IMG/VR virus record: IMGVR_UViG_3300037488_002617
Span: 1 to 33,988 of that record
DNA: 33,988 nt
From: a virus
Strand: one strand, 5' to 3'
Shown: positions 2,373-22,205 of the stretch, one piece after another
How the letters are laid out: the number at the start of each line of letters is the position of its first letter
How positions within the stretch are numbered: the stretch's first letter is position 1
Translations under genes and position numbers: made by a program
The notes under the pieces: generated by a model
The model's input: the letters and a program-made list of their open reading frames with translations, nothing else
Told to the model about the DNA's origin: nothing
Database searches by the model: none

Positions 2373-2662
2373 TCTTCGTCGGCGCGCTGGAGCGGCGCCG
2401 TGCCGCGTGGGGCTGGGACTTCTCGGCCCGGCTGATCAGCGACGAGCACGAGGCCGAGCTGCGCAGCTTCGCCTTCCTGCTCCAGCTGCCGGCCCACTGG
2501 ATGTCGGAGACCCGGGTGCCTTGCTACCGGATCTCACCACGTTGCCGGGAGAAGGCGGTCCGCTACGGCGCCGTCGAGGGCGACGCCCAGGTGATGACCG
2601 ACGCCGCGTCGCGCTACCGGCTCGCCCGCGGCCCGATCCGCAAGCCCCCCGCTCGTGGCTGA
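2369..2662 (+). CDS. DUF4031-like protein between the terminase subunits
   Basis: 97-residue protein. The pattern of a short beta strand (MIFVGAL), an aromatic-rich segment (WGWDFSARLISD), ELRSFAFLLQLPAHWM and then CYRISPRCREKAVRYGAV resembles the DUF4031 family of phage and bacterial proteins, whose function is unknown. GTG 2369 overlaps the small terminase stop (GTGA), and its own end overlaps the large terminase start by 8 bases, so the three genes are probably translationally coupled. A role in packaging is inferred from position only. The family call rests on recalled pattern similarity. Confidence 0.6.
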   Translation: MIFVGALERRRAAWGWDFSARLISDEHEAELRSFAFLLQLPAHWMSETRVPCYRISPRCREKAVRYGAVEGDAQVMTDAASRYRLARGPIRKPPARG

Positions 2663-4565
2663 CGGCTTCCAGGTCTACACCGAGGCGTTCGCCCGCGCCT
2701 TCGCGCTCCCGCCGGCGCTCACGATCTCCGAGTGCGCCGACCAGTACCGCTGGCTGCCCCCGACCTCCGCCTCTGCCGGCGGCCGCTGGCGCACCAGCCG
2801 CACGCCCTACCTGCGCGAGATCATGGACGTGCTCTCGCCTGACGATCCGACCAACGAGGTCGTCTTGATGAAGGGTGCCCAGCTCGGCGGCTCGGAGATC
2901 GCGGTCAACTGGGCGCTCTACACCATGCTCTACGCGCCCGCCCAGTTCCTGATCTACCAGCCCTCGCTCGAGTCCGCGCGCAGCTTCAACCAGGACCGCA
3001 TCGAGCCGATGATGACGATGACTCCTGAGCTCGAGGGTATCGTCGCCCGGGCCCGCTCGCGCAGCACGTCCTACCGCGCGCTCTACAAGAGCTTCCTCGG
3101 CGGCGCCCTGCGGCTGGCGGGTGCGAACTCCCCGAAGAGCTTCCGCCAGATCTCCGCACCCGACATGGTGCTCGACGACCTCGACGGCTGGCCCGGCGAC
3201 GTCGGCGGGGAAGGGGACCCGATCACCCTGCTGCGCGCGCGCGCCTCGACCTTCGGGCGGCGCTGGAAGATGCTCCAGATCTCGACCCCGACCACCAAGG
3301 ACGAGTCCCGTATCGAGAAGGCCTACCTCGCCAGCGACCAGCGCCGCTACCTGGTTCCCTGCCCCGAGTGCCAGCACCCCGACTGGATGCGCTGGGAGAA
3401 CATCCGCTGGACCGACAGCGACCCGGCCACCGCCCGGCTCCTCTGTGCGAACTGCGGCGTCCTGCTCGAGGAGGGGCAGAAGACCCGCATGCTCGAGCAG
3501 GGCCGCTGGGTCGCACAGGCGCCTGGGTCCGGCAAGGCGGCTGGCTTCCACCTGTCCGCCCTCTACTCGCCGCTCGGCTGGTTAAGCTGGGAGTCATGCG
3601 TCAAGAAGTTCCTCGCCGCCAAGGACGACCCGCCCCAGCTCAAAGGCTTCGTCAACACCGTGTTGGGCGAGACCTACGACGAGCGCCCCGACGAGATCGC
3701 CCCGAGCGCCCTGTACGCCCGCCGCGAGGTCTACCCGGCCCCGGTCCCGGACGGGGTCGGGGTCCTGGTGCGCACCGTGGACACGCAGGACGACTGCCTG
3801 GTCTGGCAGGTCACCGGCTTCGGCGCTCAGGGGGAGACCTGGGCGATCGACTACGGCCAGATCGCCGGCGACCCCGGCACGCTCCTGCCGTACCGGGACC
3901 TCGACCGGATCCGCGAGCTGCGCTACCAGCACCAGAGCGGCCGCCAGGTCCCGGTCGAGATCACGCTGGTGGACGCGGGCGGTCACCACTTCAACGAAGT
4001 CCTGGCCTACTGTAAGCCCCGTCAGGCGCACCGGGTCTACGCCATCCACGGCGGCCGCGACACCAGCCGCGAGCTGGTGGGGAAGCCCTCGACCAAGAAC
4101 AAGCTCCGGGCCAGGCTCTACACGCTCTGCGTCAATACCGGGAAGGACACCCTGCGCTCCCGGCTGCGCGTCTCGCGCCCCTCGGAGACCGCGCGCTGTC
4201 CGGGCTACATCCACCTGCCGGTGGCGCCCTGGTGCGACGAGGAATACTGCGCGCAGCTCACCTCCGAAGTACGCGAGCGCCAGCACGTGCGCGGGGTCGG
4301 CTGGACGCGGAAGTGGACCAAGATCCGCGACCGGAACGAGGCGTGGGATCTCATGGTCTACGCCCTGGCCGCGCTCGACATCCTCGGGCCTGCCACGCGG
4401 GAGAGCCTCGGTCAGCGGGCCGCGCAGTTCTCGGTCCCGGTGGCGGGGGCGCCCACGACGGCCGCGAAAAACAACGCCCAGGTTCTGGTCAACACCACGC
4501 CGCGGGCGCGGCCGGGATTCGTGACGCGGCGGCGCACTGGTTTCGGTCCGCGCTGGGGGCGTTGA
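2655..4565 (+). CDS. Terminase large subunit, lambda GpA type
   Basis: ATP-driven DNA-packaging motor and nuclease, 636 residues, of the lambda gpA family. The ATPase half has a Walker A-like KGAQLGGSE at 73-81 and a Walker B-like VLDDLDG at 172-178. A zinc ribbon with C236/C239 and C264/C267 follows, a hallmark of this family. The nuclease half shows acidic residues at D376 (VDTQDD), D440 (LVDAGG) and D565 (NEAWDLMVYAL), matching the RNase H-like catalytic triad. Length is normal for the family. GTG 2655 overlaps the previous gene by 8 bases. It acts with the small subunit to cut concatemers and fill proheads through the portal. Unusually, the portal gene lies about 10 kb downstream. Confidence 0.95.
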   Translation: MADGFQVYTEAFARAFALPPALTISECADQYRWLPPTSASAGGRWRTSRTPYLREIMDVLSPDDPTNEVVLMKGAQLGGSEIAVNWALYTMLYAPAQFLIYQPSLESARSFNQDRIEPMMTMTPELEGIVARARSRSTSYRALYKSFLGGALRLAGANSPKSFRQISAPDMVLDDLDGWPGDVGGEGDPITLLRARASTFGRRWKMLQISTPTTKDESRIEKAYLASDQRRYLVPCPECQHPDWMRWENIRWTDSDPATARLLCANCGVLLEEGQKTRMLEQGRWVAQAPGSGKAAGFHLSALYSPLGWLSWESCVKKFLAAKDDPPQLKGFVNTVLGETYDERPDEIAPSALYARREVYPAPVPDGVGVLVRTVDTQDDCLVWQVTGFGAQGETWAIDYGQIAGDPGTLLPYRDLDRIRELRYQHQSGRQVPVEITLVDAGGHHFNEVLAYCKPRQAHRVYAIHGGRDTSRELVGKPSTKNKLRARLYTLCVNTGKDTLRSRLRVSRPSETARCPGYIHLPVAPWCDEEYCAQLTSEVRERQHVRGVGWTRKWTKIRDRNEAWDLMVYALAALDILGPATRESLGQRAAQFSVPVAGAPTTAAKNNAQVLVNTTPRARPGFVTRRRTGFGPRWGR

Positions 4566-7014: not shown

Positions 7015-7313
7015 TCCGCTCGACCGTCACGGTGCGGCGCCACCAGATCTCACCGACCGGACCTACCGAGCGCGCGGTCTACCGCGAGGCCTCAGTCGGG
7101 CCGGATGGGGCGACGCTGGTTCTCGCCCTACAGCTCGAGCCGCGCAGCCTGCACATCCCCACCTCGGCGCACGCCGCCGCCCTCGAGGAGATCGCCCGCA
7201 TCGTCCGCATCGCGCTCTTCGACCAGGAGCAGAGCGGGCAGCCCGAGCCCGACGAAGAGACCAGCGATCCCGCCCCCGTGACCCCAGACCGCCATCAGGG
7301 AGGTAAGCAGTGA
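7011..7313 (+). CDS. Unknown small early protein
   Basis: 100 residues, not recognised. Residues 1-50 look beta-rich (STVTVRRHQISPTGP; ATLVLALQLEPRSLHI), residues 55-72 are helical, and the tail is acidic (PEPDEETSDPAP). GTG 7011 overlaps the preceding stop (GTGATC). Its end overlaps the ParB-like gene start. Confidence 0.65.
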   Translation: MIRSTVTVRRHQISPTGPTERAVYREASVGPDGATLVLALQLEPRSLHIPTSAHAAALEEIARIVRIALFDQEQSGQPEPDEETSDPAPVTPDRHQGGKQ

Positions 7314-8890
7314 AGACGACCTCAGGCGCCATCGCCGGCGCCGTGTTGATTCCGATCGTCAAGCTCGACGCCTGTGAGACCAACGGGCGCGGCCGGGCTG
7401 ACGCCGCGGGGATGGATGAGCTCACCGACTCGATCCGCGCCCACGGGATCATCCAGCCGCTGATCGTGCGTCGGCTCGGACTCTCCGGCACTGTCGAGCG
7501 GCTCGAGGTGGTCTGTGGCCACCGGCGCCTCGAGGCGGCCCGGCGCGCGGGGTTGCTGGACGTCCCGGTGATCGAGCGTGAGCTCACCGACGTCGAGGCT
7601 GCCGAGATACAGCTGGTCGAGAACCTCCAGCGCGAGGACCTCTCGCCGCTGGACGAGGCCTCGGCGATCGAGCGGCTGCTGACCCTGGTCTCGCTCGAGG
7701 AGGCGGCCGCCACACTCGGCAAGAGCCGCACCTACCTGGCGAGCCGGATGATCCTGACCCGGCTGCCCCAGGGCGCAAGGCTAGCGCTCGAGGCCGGGAC
7801 GTTGAGCCTATCGGTTGCCCTGATGATTGCGCGGGTCCACGACGAGGCGCTGCGCGAGAAGGTCGCGCTCGAGGTCCAGGACGGCCGGCAGGTGTGGGAC
7901 CCGGACGCCGACGAGGCGGTCCACGTCCCGCTCTCGATCGCCGAGACCCGGCGCGCCTTCGAGCGGACCATGCTACATCTCGCTCACGCCACGTTCGAGC
8001 CCGAAGATGCCGAACTTCTCCCAGGCACGCTCGCCTGCAGCCTGTGCCCCAAGCGTAGCGGGAACTCCCCCGACCTCTTCGGGGACGTCTCTGATCGGGA
8101 CGTGTGCACCGACCCCGCCTGCTTCGCCCAGAAGCGCGACGCTGGCTGGACTACGCGCAAGGCCGAGGCGGAGGCCAAGGGCTACCAGGTCCTGCCGGAC
8201 TCCCGGGCGAAGAAGATCCTCCAGAGCCCCTTCAACGGCAGCTCTTCGCTGGTCCGTGAGGACTCAGGCTTCGTCTCGCCCGCGAGCAAGGTCGGCCGCG
8301 ACGGCGACGCGCGCCAGTGGCTGCAGGTGGCCAAGGCCGCGAAGGTCAAGCCGCTGACGCTGGCGGTCCGCGACCCCCTGACCGACAAGGCTGTGCTGCT
8401 GTGGCGGGTCGACGACCTGATGGAGATGCTACCGGCCGACGAGAAGGCGAAGGTGGCGCTGCCCAAGGCGCGCGCGGGCTCGCCCGCCACGGAGCCGGTC
8501 GATTCACCGGCGGCCGTACCCGACGTGGACGCGGTCATGGCGGAGGCGGCCCCGCAGCTCGCCGAGGCGGTCTACCGGGCGGCGGCAGACCTCGAGCCCG
8601 AGGCGTTTCTACGGTTGCTCGTCAACGTCTCGGTGCCCGCCTACCACACGCTCAGGCACCTCGAGACCATCGGGATGAAGGTCAAGAAGGTCCCGGCCCA
8701 GATCGACGCTCAGGGCTGTCAGGCCATCCTCGCGCTCGACACCCACGAGTACGGCGATTCCGAGGTGGTTGAGAAGGCCCTCAAAATCAACGTGAAGCCG
8801 ATCCTCGCCGCGGCGCGCAAGCGCTTGCTCGAGGCCCAGGGTGAGGCCGCGGCGCCAGCGAAGGGCAAGAAGGCGAAGGCGAAGCGATGA
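7310..8890 (+). CDS. ParB/RepB/Spo0J-family protein
   Basis: 526-residue ParB-like DNA-binding protein. The N-terminal ParB nucleotide-binding domain has CGHRR at 69-73 and ENLQRED at 104-110. A helix-turn-helix follows at about 126-150 (LEEAAATLGKSRTYLASRM). Residues 243-271 hold four cysteines (CSLC and CTDPAC), a probable zinc site often seen in phage and plasmid members. The C-terminus is rich in Lys and Ala. Chromosomal ParB proteins are usually 280-300 residues, so the long C-terminal part is extra. GTG 7310 has a strong AGGGAGG upstream. No parA ATPase gene is visible, so it probably acts in replication or regulation rather than segregation. This is the second ParB domain in the window. 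Confidence 0.85.
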   Translation: MKTTSGAIAGAVLIPIVKLDACETNGRGRADAAGMDELTDSIRAHGIIQPLIVRRLGLSGTVERLEVVCGHRRLEAARRAGLLDVPVIERELTDVEAAEIQLVENLQREDLSPLDEASAIERLLTLVSLEEAAATLGKSRTYLASRMILTRLPQGARLALEAGTLSLSVALMIARVHDEALREKVALEVQDGRQVWDPDADEAVHVPLSIAETRRAFERTMLHLAHATFEPEDAELLPGTLACSLCPKRSGNSPDLFGDVSDRDVCTDPACFAQKRDAGWTTRKAEAEAKGYQVLPDSRAKKILQSPFNGSSSLVREDSGFVSPASKVGRDGDARQWLQVAKAAKVKPLTLAVRDPLTDKAVLLWRVDDLMEMLPADEKAKVALPKARAGSPATEPVDSPAAVPDVDAVMAEAAPQLAEAVYRAAADLEPEAFLRLLVNVSVPAYHTLRHLETIGMKVKKVPAQIDAQGCQAILALDTHEYGDSEVVEKALKINVKPILAAARKRLLEAQGEAAAPAKGKKAKAKR

Positions 8891-11126: not shown

Positions 11127-12050
11127 GTGTCGAACCGTCATATCACCGAAGCCTGGAAGGTCCCGCTGCCAGCGCGGGAGAAGCTGGTGCTCCTCGCCCA
11201 GGCGGACCACGCCTGTGACTACTGTGGGCTTGGCTGGCCCGGGCTGAGGCTGCTGGGGGAGAAGACCGGGGTGGGCAAGACCGGCCTGCGGGACGCCCTG
11301 GAGAAGCTCCTCGGCCTCGGCCTGGTCGAGCTGCACGCCTACGGGCAGGGCGGGCGCGGGTGCTCGACCGTCTACCGGGTCCTGCCGGCGCTGATCGGCG
11401 CCCAGGCCCCGTGCCCGAAGTGCCAGGCGAACCTGCGGACCCCGGCCGTCCCGGCGCCCCGGAAGCCCCGCGCAGCCGAAACCGCTCGGACGTCCGGACG
11501 GTATTCGAGCGCGAAACCCACCGGACGTGCGGACGGTTTCGCTCTGGGTGCCGGAGAATACCCACCGGACGCGCGGACGGTTTCCACAATACCCACCGGA
11601 AACGAGCCCGAAACCCACCGGACCACGAACGCGGCATCGGCCCCGCAATGCGTTGATTCTCAGGCGGTTGCCGTCGCCGTTGTCGTGTCCGGCGCGTCAC
11701 AACCCTCAGTAGAATCTAAACCCTCACCGCGCGCGTACGTATACGCGCGCGAGGGGCAGGAGGCGGCGGCTGCGCCGCGCGTCCCGGGCCCTACCCGGCA
11801 CACCCCCGGCTCAGTGGCCGAGATCCTCGCCCGGACCATGCCGGGCCTGCGGGTCTCGGCGGTGCTGGATGGCATCCCCGTCACCGCCGCGGTCTCAGCG
11901 ACCCCGGAAGCCAGACCCACTGACAGGGGAGAGGCGCAAACCCGAGGCCAGCGAGCCCGGATCAGCCCCCGAGCCTCGCCAGCGGGACCAGGCGGCGCGC
12001 CACTGCCCGTCTGGGCAGCGTCAGGCGGGCAATGGCGGGCGAACGACTGA
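11127..12050 (+). CDS. Replication initiator-like winged-helix protein
   Basis: 307 residues. The N-terminus (residues 1-75) is a helix-turn-helix of the type in phage O-like initiators and related proteins: VPLPAREKLVLLAQADHA, then LGEKTGVGKTGLRDALEKLL and GLVEL. It carries C30-x2-C33 and C96-x2-C99, unusual additions that could bind zinc. The rest is low-complexity and rich in Pro, Ala and Arg. DNA repeats at 11478-11632 and a palindrome at 11721-11755 lie inside the gene, as the origin lies inside lambda O. No helicase or loader gene is visible, so it probably recruits host proteins. AGGGAGGG precedes GTG 11127. The 160 bases after its stop hold no convincing gene. Confidence 0.65.
   Translation: MSNRHITEAWKVPLPAREKLVLLAQADHACDYCGLGWPGLRLLGEKTGVGKTGLRDALEKLLGLGLVELHAYGQGGRGCSTVYRVLPALIGAQAPCPKCQANLRTPAVPAPRKPRAAETARTSGRYSSAKPTGRADGFALGAGEYPPDARTVSTIPTGNEPETHRTTNAASAPQCVDSQAVAVAVVVSGASQPSVESKPSPRAYVYAREGQEAAAAPRVPGPTRHTPGSVAEILARTMPGLRVSAVLDGIPVTAAVSATPEARPTDRGEAQTRGQRARISPRASPAGPGGAPLPVWAASGGQWRAND
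11478..11632. repeat. Iteron-like direct repeats, candidate replication origin
   Basis: Three near copies of GAAACCCACCGGACGNNCGGACGGTTTC occur at 11478-11506, 11513-11541 and 11556-11585. Two shortened copies of the ACCCACCGG half lie at 11588-11609 and 11610-11632. Each full copy contains CGGACG twice, 8 bases apart. Repeat starts are 35 and 43 bases apart. The encoded peptide is only loosely repeated, so the DNA appears to be what is conserved. Iterons inside the initiator gene are the arrangement of lambda ori. Confidence 0.6.
11721..11755. repeat. Alternating purine/pyrimidine palindrome downstream of the iterons
   Basis: Positions 11728-11751 are 24 bases of unbroken pyrimidine/purine alternation and can pair as a 10-base stem (11728-11737 with 11742-11751) around CGTA. 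Flanking CCCTC (11721-11725) and GAGGG (11751-11755) are also complementary. Such a tract can form a cruciform or Z-DNA. An A/T-rich patch at 11705-11720 lies between it and the iterons. Confidence 0.7.
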
Positions 12051-13482: not shown

Positions 13483-13620
13483 CGCCCGCGTCGTTGGCGG
13501 ACTTGATTCGCCGAAGGGCCGCGCGCTCTACGCCAGTCGGAGATTCCGCGGACCCCTGTTTTGCGTTCACCCCGAAATCACTGGCCTCAACGCTCAGAAG
13601 TGTCAACGGAATGTTTACAT
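13483..13620. repeat. 138-bp direct repeat, copy 1
   Basis: This segment matches 14064-14201 over 138 bases without an insertion or deletion, with 11 mismatches by eye. It ends 35 bases before the ATG of the first member of a paralogous gene pair. It contains a small hairpin (13496-13501 with 13507-13512) that is kept in both copies, with a difference only in the loop. I see no clear promoter. Region 13469-13655 has no gene. Confidence 0.85.
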
Positions 13621-13622
13621 CA

Positions 13623-13632
13623 CCCCCCCCCC
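13623..13632. repeat. C10 homopolymer tract upstream of the first paralogue
   Basis: Ten consecutive C bases lie between repeat copy 1 and the ATG at 13656. The corresponding place in copy 2 has only C5. Length change here could alter promoter-start spacing. It is the second 10-base homopolymer in the window. Confidence 0.6.
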
Positions 13633-13655
13633 TCGGTTGATGTACCGTGCCGCGT

Positions 13656-14009
13656 ATGTGCGCCGCGCATCCACCGATCACGTTGCTGGCGGGCTCTTCG
13701 TCGATCAAGACCACCACACTCGACGAGTACCTGGCGGATCAGTGGACCCTGACCTTCGTGCTGAGCGGCCCGTCGAACCTCGACGCGGTGGCCGCCATGA
13801 CCGGCGTTGATCACGTCGAGACGGTCACCGCGCCCGCGAACTCCTCACTCTTCGACGCGCTGTACCGCTGGAACGAGGCGGTACGCGCGGCCGCGGATCC
13901 CGTGCTCCAGGCGTTCATCATCGCCGAGCTCGAGGTCGCGCTGATGCGGATCGTGCGCTACGAGAAGGACGCGGTCCGGCTCTCGCGCACCCGCCGCTCG
14001 GTGCGCTGA
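13656..14009 (+). CDS. Paralogue of the gpW-like protein N-terminal domain
   Basis: 117 residues. Residues 8-75 align by eye with the N-terminus of the protein at 14237: ITLLAGSSSIKTTTLDEYLA and TLTFVLSGPSNLDAV correspond to STLIAGTTTVYTRTLDDYPA and TFTLALRGRSELDVV, and LYRWNEAV to QYRWAEMV. The C-terminal 45 residues are helical and unlike the gpW part of the other gene. No ribosome site precedes ATG 13656, as is also true for the other gene. It is probably a duplicated and then shortened or re-ended copy; function unknown. Confidence 0.65.
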   Translation: MCAAHPPITLLAGSSSIKTTTLDEYLADQWTLTFVLSGPSNLDAVAAMTGVDHVETVTAPANSSLFDALYRWNEAVRAAADPVLQAFIIAELEVALMRIVRYEKDAVRLSRTRRSVR

Positions 14010-14063
14010 GCGCCCCCGATAAGTTTCGCGCGCCCCCGAATTTCTGCAAACGCGAACGCTGAA

Positions 14064-14201
14064 CGCCCGCGTCGTTGGCGGACTTGGTTCGCCGAAGGGC
14101 CGCGTGCTCTACGCCAGTCGGAGATTTCGCGGACCCCCTTTTTGCGTTTACCTCGAAATCACTGGCTTGGACGCTCAGAAGTGTCAACGGAATGTGTACA
14201 T
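14064..14201. repeat. 138-bp direct repeat, copy 2
   Basis: Second copy of the element at 13483-13620, 581 bases away, and also 35 bases before an ATG (14237). The hairpin GGCGGA/TTCGCC at 14077-14082 and 14088-14093 is preserved. The repeat frame is open and joins the downstream gene in this copy, but is closed by TGA 13638 in copy 1, so it is not an extended coding region. The stretch 14010-14063 before it holds no gene. Confidence 0.85.
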
Positions 14202-14236
14202 GCGCGAGCGCCCCCGGTTGTCGAATACTTCAACGC

Positions 14237-14797
14237 ATGGACGCGACGAGCCTTCCCTCGACCCTGATCGCCGGCACCACGACTGTCTACACGCGCACGC
14301 TCGACGACTACCCCGCACCCGAGTGGACCTTCACCCTCGCGCTGCGCGGACGCTCTGAGCTTGACGTCGTCGCCACCGCCTCGGGATCCGCTCACCTGGT
14401 GACGATCAGCGCCACCGCGAGCGCCGGCCTGCTGGCGGGGCAGTACCGCTGGGCTGAGATGGTGGAGCGCGGAGTGGACGCTGCACGCGAGGTCTACCCG
14501 ATCGCGCGCGGAGAGATCACGGTCGAGCCCGACCTGCTGGCCGCGGCCGCGGGCGACCTGCAGAGCACCGACGAGCAGTTGCTGGCGCTGATCAGGGCTG
14601 AGCTGGTGCGGCGCGCGACCGGCGGCGACATCGAGAGCTACCAGGTCGGCGGGGGCGACACCGCGATCACCCGGCGGCCGACCAAGGAGCTCGAGCAGCG
14701 CGTTGACCAGCTCGAGGGGCGGATCAACGCCCGCAAGCGCCGCGGCGCCTTCCAGGGCGTGAGGCTCACCTACTCATCCCGCACGAGGCTGGCATGA
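14237..14797 (+). CDS. gpW-like head-tail adaptor with a beta-rich N-terminal domain
   Basis: 186 residues. Residues 5-95 form a beta-rich domain shared with the gene at 13656. The C-terminal 60 residues (ALIRAELVRRAT, then SYQVGGGDTAITRRPTKELE and QLEGRINARKRRG) follow the lambda gpW pattern, including the final basic turn. gpW closes the filled head and joins it to the tail. The portal begins 4 bases before its stop, matching the lambda order W-B. The N-terminal domain is extra compared with the 68-residue lambda gpW. The ATG has no Shine-Dalgarno, so translation may depend on upstream structure in the repeat. Confidence 0.7.
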   Translation: MDATSLPSTLIAGTTTVYTRTLDDYPAPEWTFTLALRGRSELDVVATASGSAHLVTISATASAGLLAGQYRWAEMVERGVDAAREVYPIARGEITVEPDLLAAAAGDLQSTDEQLLALIRAELVRRATGGDIESYQVGGGDTAITRRPTKELEQRVDQLEGRINARKRRGAFQGVRLTYSSRTRLA

Positions 14798-16470
14798 GCC
14801 GCACGCGCGAGAAGTTGCCGTTCCTGCTCCGGCTCTACCAGGCGCAGCGCCTGCTCTCCGGGCGTAGCCTGGACGACGACAGCTTCATCTCCGCGATGAG
14901 CGGCGGGGGTGGCTCTTCGCCCGGCCCCGGCAGCTACCTGCACCGCCTGCGTCACCCGGCCTCGGAGGTGCGGCTCAAGAACCGCTCGCTCCGTGGCGGC
15001 GGGCGTGATCTCGCAGCGACCGACCCCTACGCGCGCCAGTTCCTGCGGATGCTCGACCTGTTCGTCGCCGGCCCGCTCGGCACCACGGTGAGTGCCGAGA
15101 TCCAGCGCCCCGCGCCGGACGGTGACGGATTCGAGCTTGACCGGGAGATCAACGCGATCATCGATGCCGGCTGGCAGGATTGGGCGAGTCACCCGGTCAC
15201 CACCGATCGGCGCCACTGTCTGGCCGCCGCGGAGCACCTGTACTGGCGCACCCAGGCGAATGACGGCGACGTCTTCGTCCGGCTCTTCGACGGCTACCCG
15301 AACCGCCACGGCCTGGCGATCCAGTTCGTTGACGCCGACCAGATCGATTCGGAGTTGAACCGCGAGGCCTACGGGCGTAATCGCGAGATCCGCATGGGGG
15401 TCGAGCTCGACGAGTACGGCGCCCCGGTCGGCTACTGGGTGCGCGACTACCCGGACGGTCACGGCTTCAAGTACGGGCCGAAGCGCGACCCGTACTTCGT
15501 CTCGGCCTACGACTTCCGCACCGGCCGCGGCGAGATGCTCCACGCCGGGCTGGCGATGCGGGCCAACCAGCTACGCTCGCTCTCCTGGTTCTCCCCGGTG
15601 CTGGAGTCCGCCGAGGCGCGCCTGCGCTACACCGACGCGGTCCTGACCGCCGCACTGCGCGCAGCCGCTCAGCCGGTCGCCCTCGAGGCTCAGGCCGAGA
15701 ACTTCTCCGACCTGCAGCAGCCCCCGCCGCCTCCCCCGGCGGACGGGAGCCCCGAGGACCCATCGACCGCCGAGGCGCGCGCCCGCTACTTCTCGCCCAC
15801 GCTCGAGGTCGACCCCGACCGGATCCCGGCACTCCCGGCCGGCTGGAAGCTCGCGAGTGTGCCGAACGATCACCCGACCGGGAACTACGCGCCGTTCTTG
15901 AAGACCACGCTGCGCGAGTACGCCGCGGGGCTCGGGGCGACCTACGAGTCGCTGGCGAACGACCGCGAGAGCACGAACTACGGCTCGCTGCGTGGCGGGA
16001 TGAAGCTCGAGCAGAAGTTCTTCCAGTTCCTCCAGCAGCGCGGGGTCGCCGACTTCCTGATCCCGCTGCGCCTGCGCTGGCTGCAGAACTCAATGCTCCA
16101 GGGCCTGGCCACCAACGGTGCCGAGGGGATCGTGCTGCCCGGGGCCGACTGGCGCGCCTACGAGCGCACCTCCTACGACCCGCCGGTGCAGGAGTGGATC
16201 GACCCGGTCAAGGACATCGAGGCGGTTGCCCGCGAGCTCGAGCTCAAGCTGACCTCGCACACCGAGGTCGCCCGCCGCATGGGCCGGCGCTGGGCCGACG
16301 TCGCCCAGAAGATCGCCGACGACCAGGAGCTGGCGAAGAAGAGCGGTTTCTCACTCGAAGTCCTGAAGAACAACCAGCCGCAGGTGGCGGCGAAGCCGGC
16401 GGACGGCACCGCGGACGACCAGGCGGATGCCGCTGCGAACCTGAACGGAGGCGGCGACGGTGGTCAGTAG
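14794..16470 (+). CDS. Portal protein, lambda gpB family
   Basis: 558-residue portal, the dodecameric ring through which DNA enters the head. Typical family features are RRHCLAAAEHLYWRTQANDGDVFVR near residue 145, IQFVDADQID, an RGEMLHAGLAMRANQLRSLSW region, and EYAAGLGATYESLANDRES near residue 388. A poly-proline stretch (LQQPPPPPPADG) at about residue 309 marks a flexible insertion. The C-terminus is helical with an acidic/alanine-rich tail. ATG 14794 overlaps the gpW-like stop (ATGA). Length is normal for the lambda family. Confidence 0.9.
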   Translation: MSRTREKLPFLLRLYQAQRLLSGRSLDDDSFISAMSGGGGSSPGPGSYLHRLRHPASEVRLKNRSLRGGGRDLAATDPYARQFLRMLDLFVAGPLGTTVSAEIQRPAPDGDGFELDREINAIIDAGWQDWASHPVTTDRRHCLAAAEHLYWRTQANDGDVFVRLFDGYPNRHGLAIQFVDADQIDSELNREAYGRNREIRMGVELDEYGAPVGYWVRDYPDGHGFKYGPKRDPYFVSAYDFRTGRGEMLHAGLAMRANQLRSLSWFSPVLESAEARLRYTDAVLTAALRAAAQPVALEAQAENFSDLQQPPPPPPADGSPEDPSTAEARARYFSPTLEVDPDRIPALPAGWKLASVPNDHPTGNYAPFLKTTLREYAAGLGATYESLANDRESTNYGSLRGGMKLEQKFFQFLQQRGVADFLIPLRLRWLQNSMLQGLATNGAEGIVLPGADWRAYERTSYDPPVQEWIDPVKDIEAVARELELKLTSHTEVARRMGRRWADVAQKIADDQELAKKSGFSLEVLKNNQPQVAAKPADGTADDQADAAANLNGGGDGGQ

Positions 16471-21550: not shown

Positions 21551-21561
21551 TTCACCAGTCT

Positions 21562-21615
21562 CCGGCCCCCGCTCCGACGGGCCGTCCAAAGCATCGGACG
21601 CCCGTCGGGGGCCGG
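21562..21615 (+). terminator. Strong hairpin after the tail tube gene
   Basis: CCGGCCCCCG (21562-21571), ACGGGC (21577-21582) and GTCC (21584-21587) pair with GGAC (21596-21599), GCCCGT (21600-21605) and CGGGGGCCGG (21606-21615): 20 pairs with two bulges and an 8-base loop. No U-tract follows, so it is not a classic intrinsic terminator. It may stabilise the tube mRNA or attenuate transcription into the chaperone genes. Confidence 0.5.
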
Positions 21616-21638
21616 GTTCCTACGGAGGGGAACCGAAC

Positions 21639-22205
21639 ATGACCCAATCAGCCGCCCTGGCCGCCTTCGCGGCCCTGGCCGTGACCGCCCTGGCCGTCTG
21701 GGCGCTACGTCGCCGTCGTGCACGGACCGTGGCCGCCGCGGCCGCTGCGGGCCCCATCATGCTCGGGGGTCGCGGGTTCGTCCGCACTGCGACGCTGAGC
21801 GTCGCCCGCGACGAGGCCTTCATGGATCTGGTATTAACCGCCGGCATCCAGAACCCCGACATCCTCCCTGGTGAAGAGTTTCAGACGTACTCCGAGCGCA
21901 TCTTCTGCGCGCTCCAGCAGGCCCGGGTGATTCGTCCGATGCTCGCCTGCCTGATCGTGCCGCTCGACACACCGACCTGGACGCCAGCCGTCGCCGACGA
22001 GACCGTGCAGTTCCTGGGAACACTCGAGGACGAGCAGGACAAGAAGCGCTACTACGCCCTCGTCGCCGAGCTGCTGTTCCCTTTCTATCGGAGCGGTCTC
22101 GCCTCCTGGGCGCGTTCGAGCGCCTGTGGCGGCGTGAGCCAGGCCAGCGGGAGCGCGTCCCCCGCGCCCTCCCCGGCGCCCGCTCCGGCTACTGGGGGAG
22201 TGTGA
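21639..22205 (+). CDS. Tail assembly chaperone (gpG-like) with a membrane-like N-terminus
   Basis: 188 residues. The gene lies between tail tube and tape measure, the place of the lambda G chaperone that holds the tape measure unfolded. Residues 5-23 are a hydrophobic helix (AALAAFAALAVTALAVWAL) followed by RRRRAR, an odd feature for a chaperone. The rest is helical (VARDEAFMDLVLTAGI; KKRYYALVAELLFPFYRSGL) and ends in a proline/serine-rich tail. AGGGG before ATG 21639 supports that start. Near the end GGGGGA may promote -1 frameshifting into the next frame. Confidence 0.55.
   Translation: MTQSAALAAFAALAVTALAVWALRRRRARTVAAAAAAGPIMLGGRGFVRTATLSVARDEAFMDLVLTAGIQNPDILPGEEFQTYSERIFCALQQARVIRPMLACLIVPLDTPTWTPAVADETVQFLGTLEDEQDKKRYYALVAELLFPFYRSGLASWARSSACGGVSQASGSASPAPSPAPAPATGGV
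22194..22199 (+). other. Candidate -1 frameshift site GGGGGA
   Basis: The run GGGGGA at 22194-22199 comes two codons before the TGA of the chaperone gene. The following frame (22202 onward) is in the -1 register. A GTG there has no usable Shine-Dalgarno, because the purine run ends 1-2 bases before it. Lambda G/GT uses a slippage at a similar place. The heptamer is not a strict X XXY YYZ. Confidence 0.35.

Follow-up and report, generated by a model that had tools for sequence, protein, structure and literature searches.

A non-coding element of 138 bp occurs twice ahead of the structural genes in the 33,988-base (34-kb) IMG/VR record of an uncultivated bacterial virus (phage), the whole of which constitutes the window analysed here, and each of its copies is followed by one of two related head-tail joining genes. 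With a probability of roughly one half, we interpret this element as a DNA control region (viz. a promoter together with upstream regulator-binding DNA), which heads the structural operon and was duplicated along with the joining gene. Judged from the sequence, this leader is most likely a region controlling the structural genes, and less likely a novel RNA device.

Genomic context of the duplicated element

The genes for the large terminase (2655), a ParB-like protein (7310-8890), a Holliday-junction resolvase (10148) and a replication initiator (11127-12050) lie upstream of the element, while those for the joining protein, portal, capsid and tail follow downstream, all on the + strand. The element is thus situated after the replication genes and directly ahead of the joining-portal-capsid-tail operon, the first long gene of which encodes the portal protein and begins within the last bases of gene 2. 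The two gaps holding the copies (187 and 227 nt) are clearly non-coding and the largest of this kind, with a G+C content of 60-62% versus 68%. The terminase gene (2655-4565) is located about 9 kb upstream of the joining and portal genes (14237-16470), and the genes for the ParB-like protein, the resolvase and replication lie in between. Further downstream, an inverted repeat rich in G+C (GGCCCCCG...CGGGGGCC) is evident in the short intergenic gap at 21551-21638, before position 21639, and may be a terminator or a processing site. The coordinates of the features discussed in this work are given in Table 1.

Table 1. Features of the duplicated leader region and the adjoining genes
Feature	Position	Strand	Basis or remarks
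Leader element, copy 1	13483..13620	+	138 nt, G+C 60%
Imperfect dyad TTGGCGGACTTGRTTCGCCGAA (hairpin of the preliminary description), copy 1	13494..13515	+	as RNA, stability not above shuffles
Conserved 3' block GTGTCAACGGAATGTKTACAT, copy 1	13600..13620	+	sequence; putative role
35-nt spacer before gene 1	13621..13655	+	same length as copy 2 spacer, diverged
Gene 1, short head-tail joining paralogue	13656..14009	+	117 aa; phrog_5774, E 5e-5
Leader element, copy 2	14064..14201	+	138 nt; full-length joining gene downstream
Imperfect dyad TTGGCGGACTTGRTTCGCCGAA, copy 2 equivalent	14075..14096	+	same basis as copy 1 dyad
Conserved 3' block GTGTCAACGGAATGTKTACAT, copy 2	14181..14201	+	-35-like hexamer TGTACA, 42 nt before the ATG
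35-nt spacer before gene 2	14202..14236	+	pairs with copy 1 spacer
Gene 2, head-tail joining protein	14237..14797	+	186 aa; phrog_5774, E 1e-27
Lambda-type portal protein	14794..16470	+	PF05136, E 1e-57; phrog_21, E 1.5e-67

The repeat and its boundaries

The two copies are identical at 127 of 138 positions (92%), with 11 differences and zero gaps, and they are spaced 581 bp start to start with 443 bp in between. Their match to each other (BLAST E-value 4e-54) is the sole significant self-repeat in the 34-kb record. The ATG codons of the two genes, at 13656 and 14237, are each placed exactly 35 nt past an element copy, and in these respects (viz. the length, the number of differences, the lack of indels, the 581-bp distance and the 35-base interval) the coordinates and the alignment agree with a preliminary description of this DNA. 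The left edge of the repeat is sharp, the flanking 60 nt being just 32% identical. On the right-hand side, a gap-free alignment continues from the element into the spacers, which are 49% identical over 35 nt versus 30% in shuffles (p about 0.01), and from there into the genes (58% over the first 94 codons). The ends of the repeat should therefore not be interpreted as insertion borders; they denote the points at which conservation drops within a duplication that is longer and in register, and the gapless homology through the spacer into the genes indicates that the duplicated unit consisted of the leader and the gene.

Within the element, the 11 differences show no significant clustering that would leave conserved blocks (p 0.24). 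The dyad TTGGCGGACTTGRTTCGCCGAA has only two matches in the window when up to 3 mismatches are allowed. The 3' block of copy 1 comprises an imperfect dyad, TGTCAAC-N5-GTTTACA, and a -35-like TTTACA located 42 nt before the ATG. In the spacer of copy 1 (13621-13655), ten consecutive C residues are enclosed by the perfectly complementary arms TACATCA/TGATGTA (13617-13623 and 13637-13643) of an inverted repeat, which is not present in copy 2.

The two joining genes

The profile match of gene 2 covers positions 2-165 of the 177 in phrog_5774 and, together with its place before the portal gene, identifies it as a member of this family; in VP882-like phages, among others, its homologues sit ahead of portal genes. 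The predicted model of gene 2, which is of moderate confidence (mean pLDDT 69), comprises a beta domain that spans residues 9-97, followed by helices (111-127 and 149-172). The match of gene 1 is partial (phrog_5774 positions 4-73 of 177, gene residues 7-76), and based on a nine-member alignment and the gene 2 model it keeps the N-terminal beta domain without the helical C-terminal part. The paralogy of the two genes, which had been suggested earlier, is borne out by their amino-acid identity of 40% over 94 residues and their common match to phrog_5774. The G+C content of gene 1 by codon position is gene-like, reaching 0.91 at the third position, and due to this strong third-position G+C and its intact frame, gene 1 is probably still selected or young.

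Unequal divergence of the leaders and the genes

At the four-fold sites in shared codon boxes, genes 1 and 2 agree in only 9 of 25 cases, which is the chance level expected of saturated sites. The comparison of this value with the 127 of 138 identical positions in the leader indicates that the leader has been kept alike, and its likeness could result from constraint (selection), gene conversion or later re-copying. A bearing on this question is provided by the best syntenic relative of this phage, G001 (L061, IMGVR_UViG_3300032177_003245), a 32-kb record in which the portal (42%), capsid (46%) and joining (35%) proteins are related to those studied here. G001 has one joining gene and, at the same place, a 210-bp non-coding leader, whose similarity to the element is not above that of shuffles. 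As the G001 leader is unlike the element despite a similar degree of divergence for its joining gene (35%) and for the two paralogues (40%), long-term constraint alone is disfavoured, and the sequences favour either conversion or recent re-copying, or control regions which were swapped between phages.

Searches for related elements

No homologues of the element were found by blastn in phages, or by exact 19-mer matching in IMG/VR and the GTDB species genomes, collections that may omit records very near the window. One match of 30 nt was seen in plasmids and six short matches (24-29 nt) in 398 Pseudomonadota genomes. All of those examined, viz. the plasmid match and four of the six others, lie inside open reading frames, and for three (L067, L069 and L070) it is a single conserved protein that is hit (around ...GRALY...). 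One such match was likewise obtained with a hand-typed control sequence whose composition was similar. Because of their location in reading frames, with three in one conserved protein, these matches were judged to be chance codon matches and not homologues. Within the collections searched, the element can therefore be regarded as undescribed, as proposed earlier.

A block of 39 bp from the G001 leader (11156-11194) is found again, with 95% identity, at 14433-14471, shortly before the capsid gene. The presence of a repeated leader before structural genes in this relative supports a regulatory meaning of such repeats in this phage group. However, the 39-bp block ends in GAAAGAAGAATGGACA, and due to this it may instead be tied to translation starts. 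The second copy of the block would open a frame of 20 codons, which stops next to the capsid start. Among related contigs identified by their portal proteins (35 loci at about 26-31%), no repeats were found near the joining gene. The closer IMG/VR relatives, L039 (terminase 75%) and L056 (tail genes 63-79%), are fragments that lie outside this region. The gene at 166-1812, which looks to be of a modification or nuclease type, shows 48% identity to L065 and has weaker pieces in G001 and L039.

Evidence bearing on a possible promoter or control region

The preliminary description also considered the element as a late promoter region or a regulator target. In favour of this are its position at the head of the operon, its non-coding nature, its lower G+C content and the parallel in G001; however, no convincing promoter consensus accompanies them. 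A scan for sigma-70 promoters found 0. When -35/-10 hexamers were scored, the best value was 8 of 12 for copy 1, which required a 16-bp spacer, and 6-7 of 12 for copy 2, and neither exceeds background. The -35-like TNTACA is the only promoter-like feature common to both copies. The lack of significant clustering of the 11 differences (p 0.24) and the dissimilar leader of G001 likewise count against a control region. As the scores are within background, it is from place and composition alone that we infer promoter activity. The absence of a Shine-Dalgarno motif at both genes, also stated earlier, is correct, yet by the same simple test 7 of 36 other listed genes lack this motif as well, which makes it a weak point.

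If the element is a control region of this kind, then the promoter or operator activity, the start site and the order of events that we infer are as follows. Upstream of the resident unit, a second unit consisting of the leader and the joining gene would have arisen by duplication or by acquisition from a related phage, and the upstream gene copy would then have lost its C-terminal helical part. Selection, gene conversion between the direct repeats, or both would have held the leader copies alike, and the leader would drive the structural operon. In view of the lack of a Shine-Dalgarno motif and the weak -35-like hexamer about 40 nt upstream, transcription probably starts near the ATG, and the joining genes may have very short leaders.

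Alternative interpretations

The main alternative, which we consider possible though doubtful, is that the arrangement is a recombination scar. In this case, illegitimate or unequal recombination between co-infecting related phages would have left a second leader and a truncated joining gene ahead of the resident unit, the extra copy would be passive, and the identity of the leaders would reflect closely related leaders or later conversion. The internal deletion of gene 1 relative to its family is consistent with such an origin, as are the presence of only one joining gene in G001, VP882, PPpW-3 and others, and the lack of conservation of the leader in G001. A precedent is known from the Cluster O mycobacteriophage Catdawg, where a segment of about 550 bp is flanked by two repeats, while the others keep one, due to recombination between the repeats (PMC4351075). 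However, the frame of gene 1 is intact with its third-position G+C at 0.91, and a non-coding identity of 92% beside saturated synonymous sites is not accounted for by a scar unless the leaders have been converted.

It is improbable, in our assessment, that the element is a structured leader RNA, with a cis-regulatory or translation-control role, retained in the two 5' UTRs. Both copies are predicted to form a 5' stem-loop (element positions 12-32), predicted pairs hit by four substitutions remain paired as G-U or U-G, and structure conservation on the minus strand is slightly above that for random placement of the substitutions (fractions 0.01-0.05, uncorrected; 0.01 and 0.03 for the structure-conservation index). 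However, the folding energy of the whole element and of its parts, on both strands, shows no excess stability versus shuffles (z -0.24 to +0.54), and on the plus strand random placement of the same substitutions gives a consensus energy and a structure conservation that are just as good (fractions 0.2-0.5). Further, random substitutions make the minimum-energy folds diverge to the same extent as is seen between the two copies, 0 pairs with two-sided change were found in a comparison limited to the two copies, and Rfam 15 yielded zero family matches for the element. With z-scores of about 0, a null result for random placement, no two-sided change and no Rfam match, the earlier proposal of a structured leader RNA is unsupported. 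The accompanying statement, that the differences fall in the loop of a small hairpin with an unchanged stem, holds for the substitution at 13506, which is in the loop, but it is overstated, as that at 13524 changes an outer G-C pair to G-U and the nine others are outside the hairpin.

A more elaborate variant of the DNA-level interpretation, to which we likewise give little credence, is that of a long undescribed late control region. Here about 138 bp would be needed, a phage regulator (e.g. the ParB-like protein) would bind at several sites, and the two copies would drive two joining variants, of which the short one would be a regulator or an alternative part of the joint.

It is very unlikely that the element codes for an N-terminal extension of gene 2 or for a small protein. 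Upstream of gene 2, its reading frame stays open back to 14063 (14063-14236), across the whole of copy 2, and contains an ATG at 14192; a hand-cut translation gave a sub-threshold match to Pfam PF24128 (17 bits vs a cut-off of 27). However, this match is gone with element-only translations of both copies, a TGA is present at 13638-13640 in the same frame of copy 1, and the homologues of gene 2 begin near residue 1. The substitutions in the element are spread over the codon positions (4, 4 and 3), most of them are non-synonymous in each of the six frames (in that of gene 2, 7 of 9 changed codons), and the element's G+C by codon position is 0.50/0.65/0.65, versus about 0.65/0.5/0.9 in genes. Based on this even spread, the non-synonymous changes and the composition unlike that of genes, a coding element was rejected. 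With the RNA signal absent and coding ruled out, what remains is a role at the DNA level, for which the two imperfect dyads and the -35-like hexamer are candidates.

Least likely of all is the double insertion of a small mobile or repeated element of the MITE or REP type, which would be in accordance with the sharp left edges and high identity of the copies, but was rejected on account of the in-register spacer and the two-copy count: the identical 35-nt spacing and the gap-free homology past the right edge denote duplication with the gene, no dispersed copies exist in phages, plasmids, IMG/VR, GTDB or the 398 Pseudomonadota genomes beyond the short codon matches, no target duplication is apparent by inspection, and the element ends, CGCCCGCGTCGTTGG versus (in reverse complement) ATGTAAACATTCCGT, do not match and thus form no terminal inverted repeat.

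Comparison with known repeats and related phages

In Cluster K mycobacteriophages, the 13-bp SAS is present in 11-19 copies in the non-structural half of the genome and the ESAS is a pair of 17-bp inverted repeats (PMC3203893). The element resembles SAS/ESAS in being repeated non-coding DNA at the 5' ends of phage genes, part of which is an imperfect dyad, but it differs from them in its length of 138 bp, its two copies, its location at structural genes and its distance of 35 nt from the start codon. The SAS repeat GGGATAGGAGCCC, found beside start codons, is not present in the element by inspection, and the element occurs only twice. The Cluster O phages (Corndog) harbour 17-bp intergenic repeats with dyad symmetry, short palindromes of which there are more than 30 copies; promoters from which leaderless mRNAs would be made are also predicted in these phages, whose G+C content is high (PMC4351075). 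Intergenic location and dyad symmetry are shared with these repeats; however, the element is one long duplicated leader with no convincing promoter consensus. By its sequence, copy number and place, the element is outside the Cluster K and Cluster O repeat types.

The leader of G001 is similar to the element in its position, in the length of its non-coding gap (210 nt) and in that part of it is repeated before a structural gene, but the sequences are dissimilar and the second copy in G001 precedes the capsid gene rather than a second joining gene. As in the VP882-like phages (Vibrio VP882, Halomonas phiHAP-1 and Escherichia ECO1230-10), a phrog_5774 joining protein is followed by a lambda-type portal protein. 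However, in these phages a single joining gene comes directly after the terminase, whereas here the terminase is 9 kb upstream and a leader stands before the joining genes.

Significance of the duplicated leader

If the element is a control region that was duplicated with the joining gene, it would indicate that the control region of a structural operon can duplicate together with a virion gene, and that stretches of non-coding DNA can remain similar even as the genes downstream of them diverge. Although it would not by itself open any long-standing question, an element of this kind would be useful for locating late promoters in uncultivated phages.
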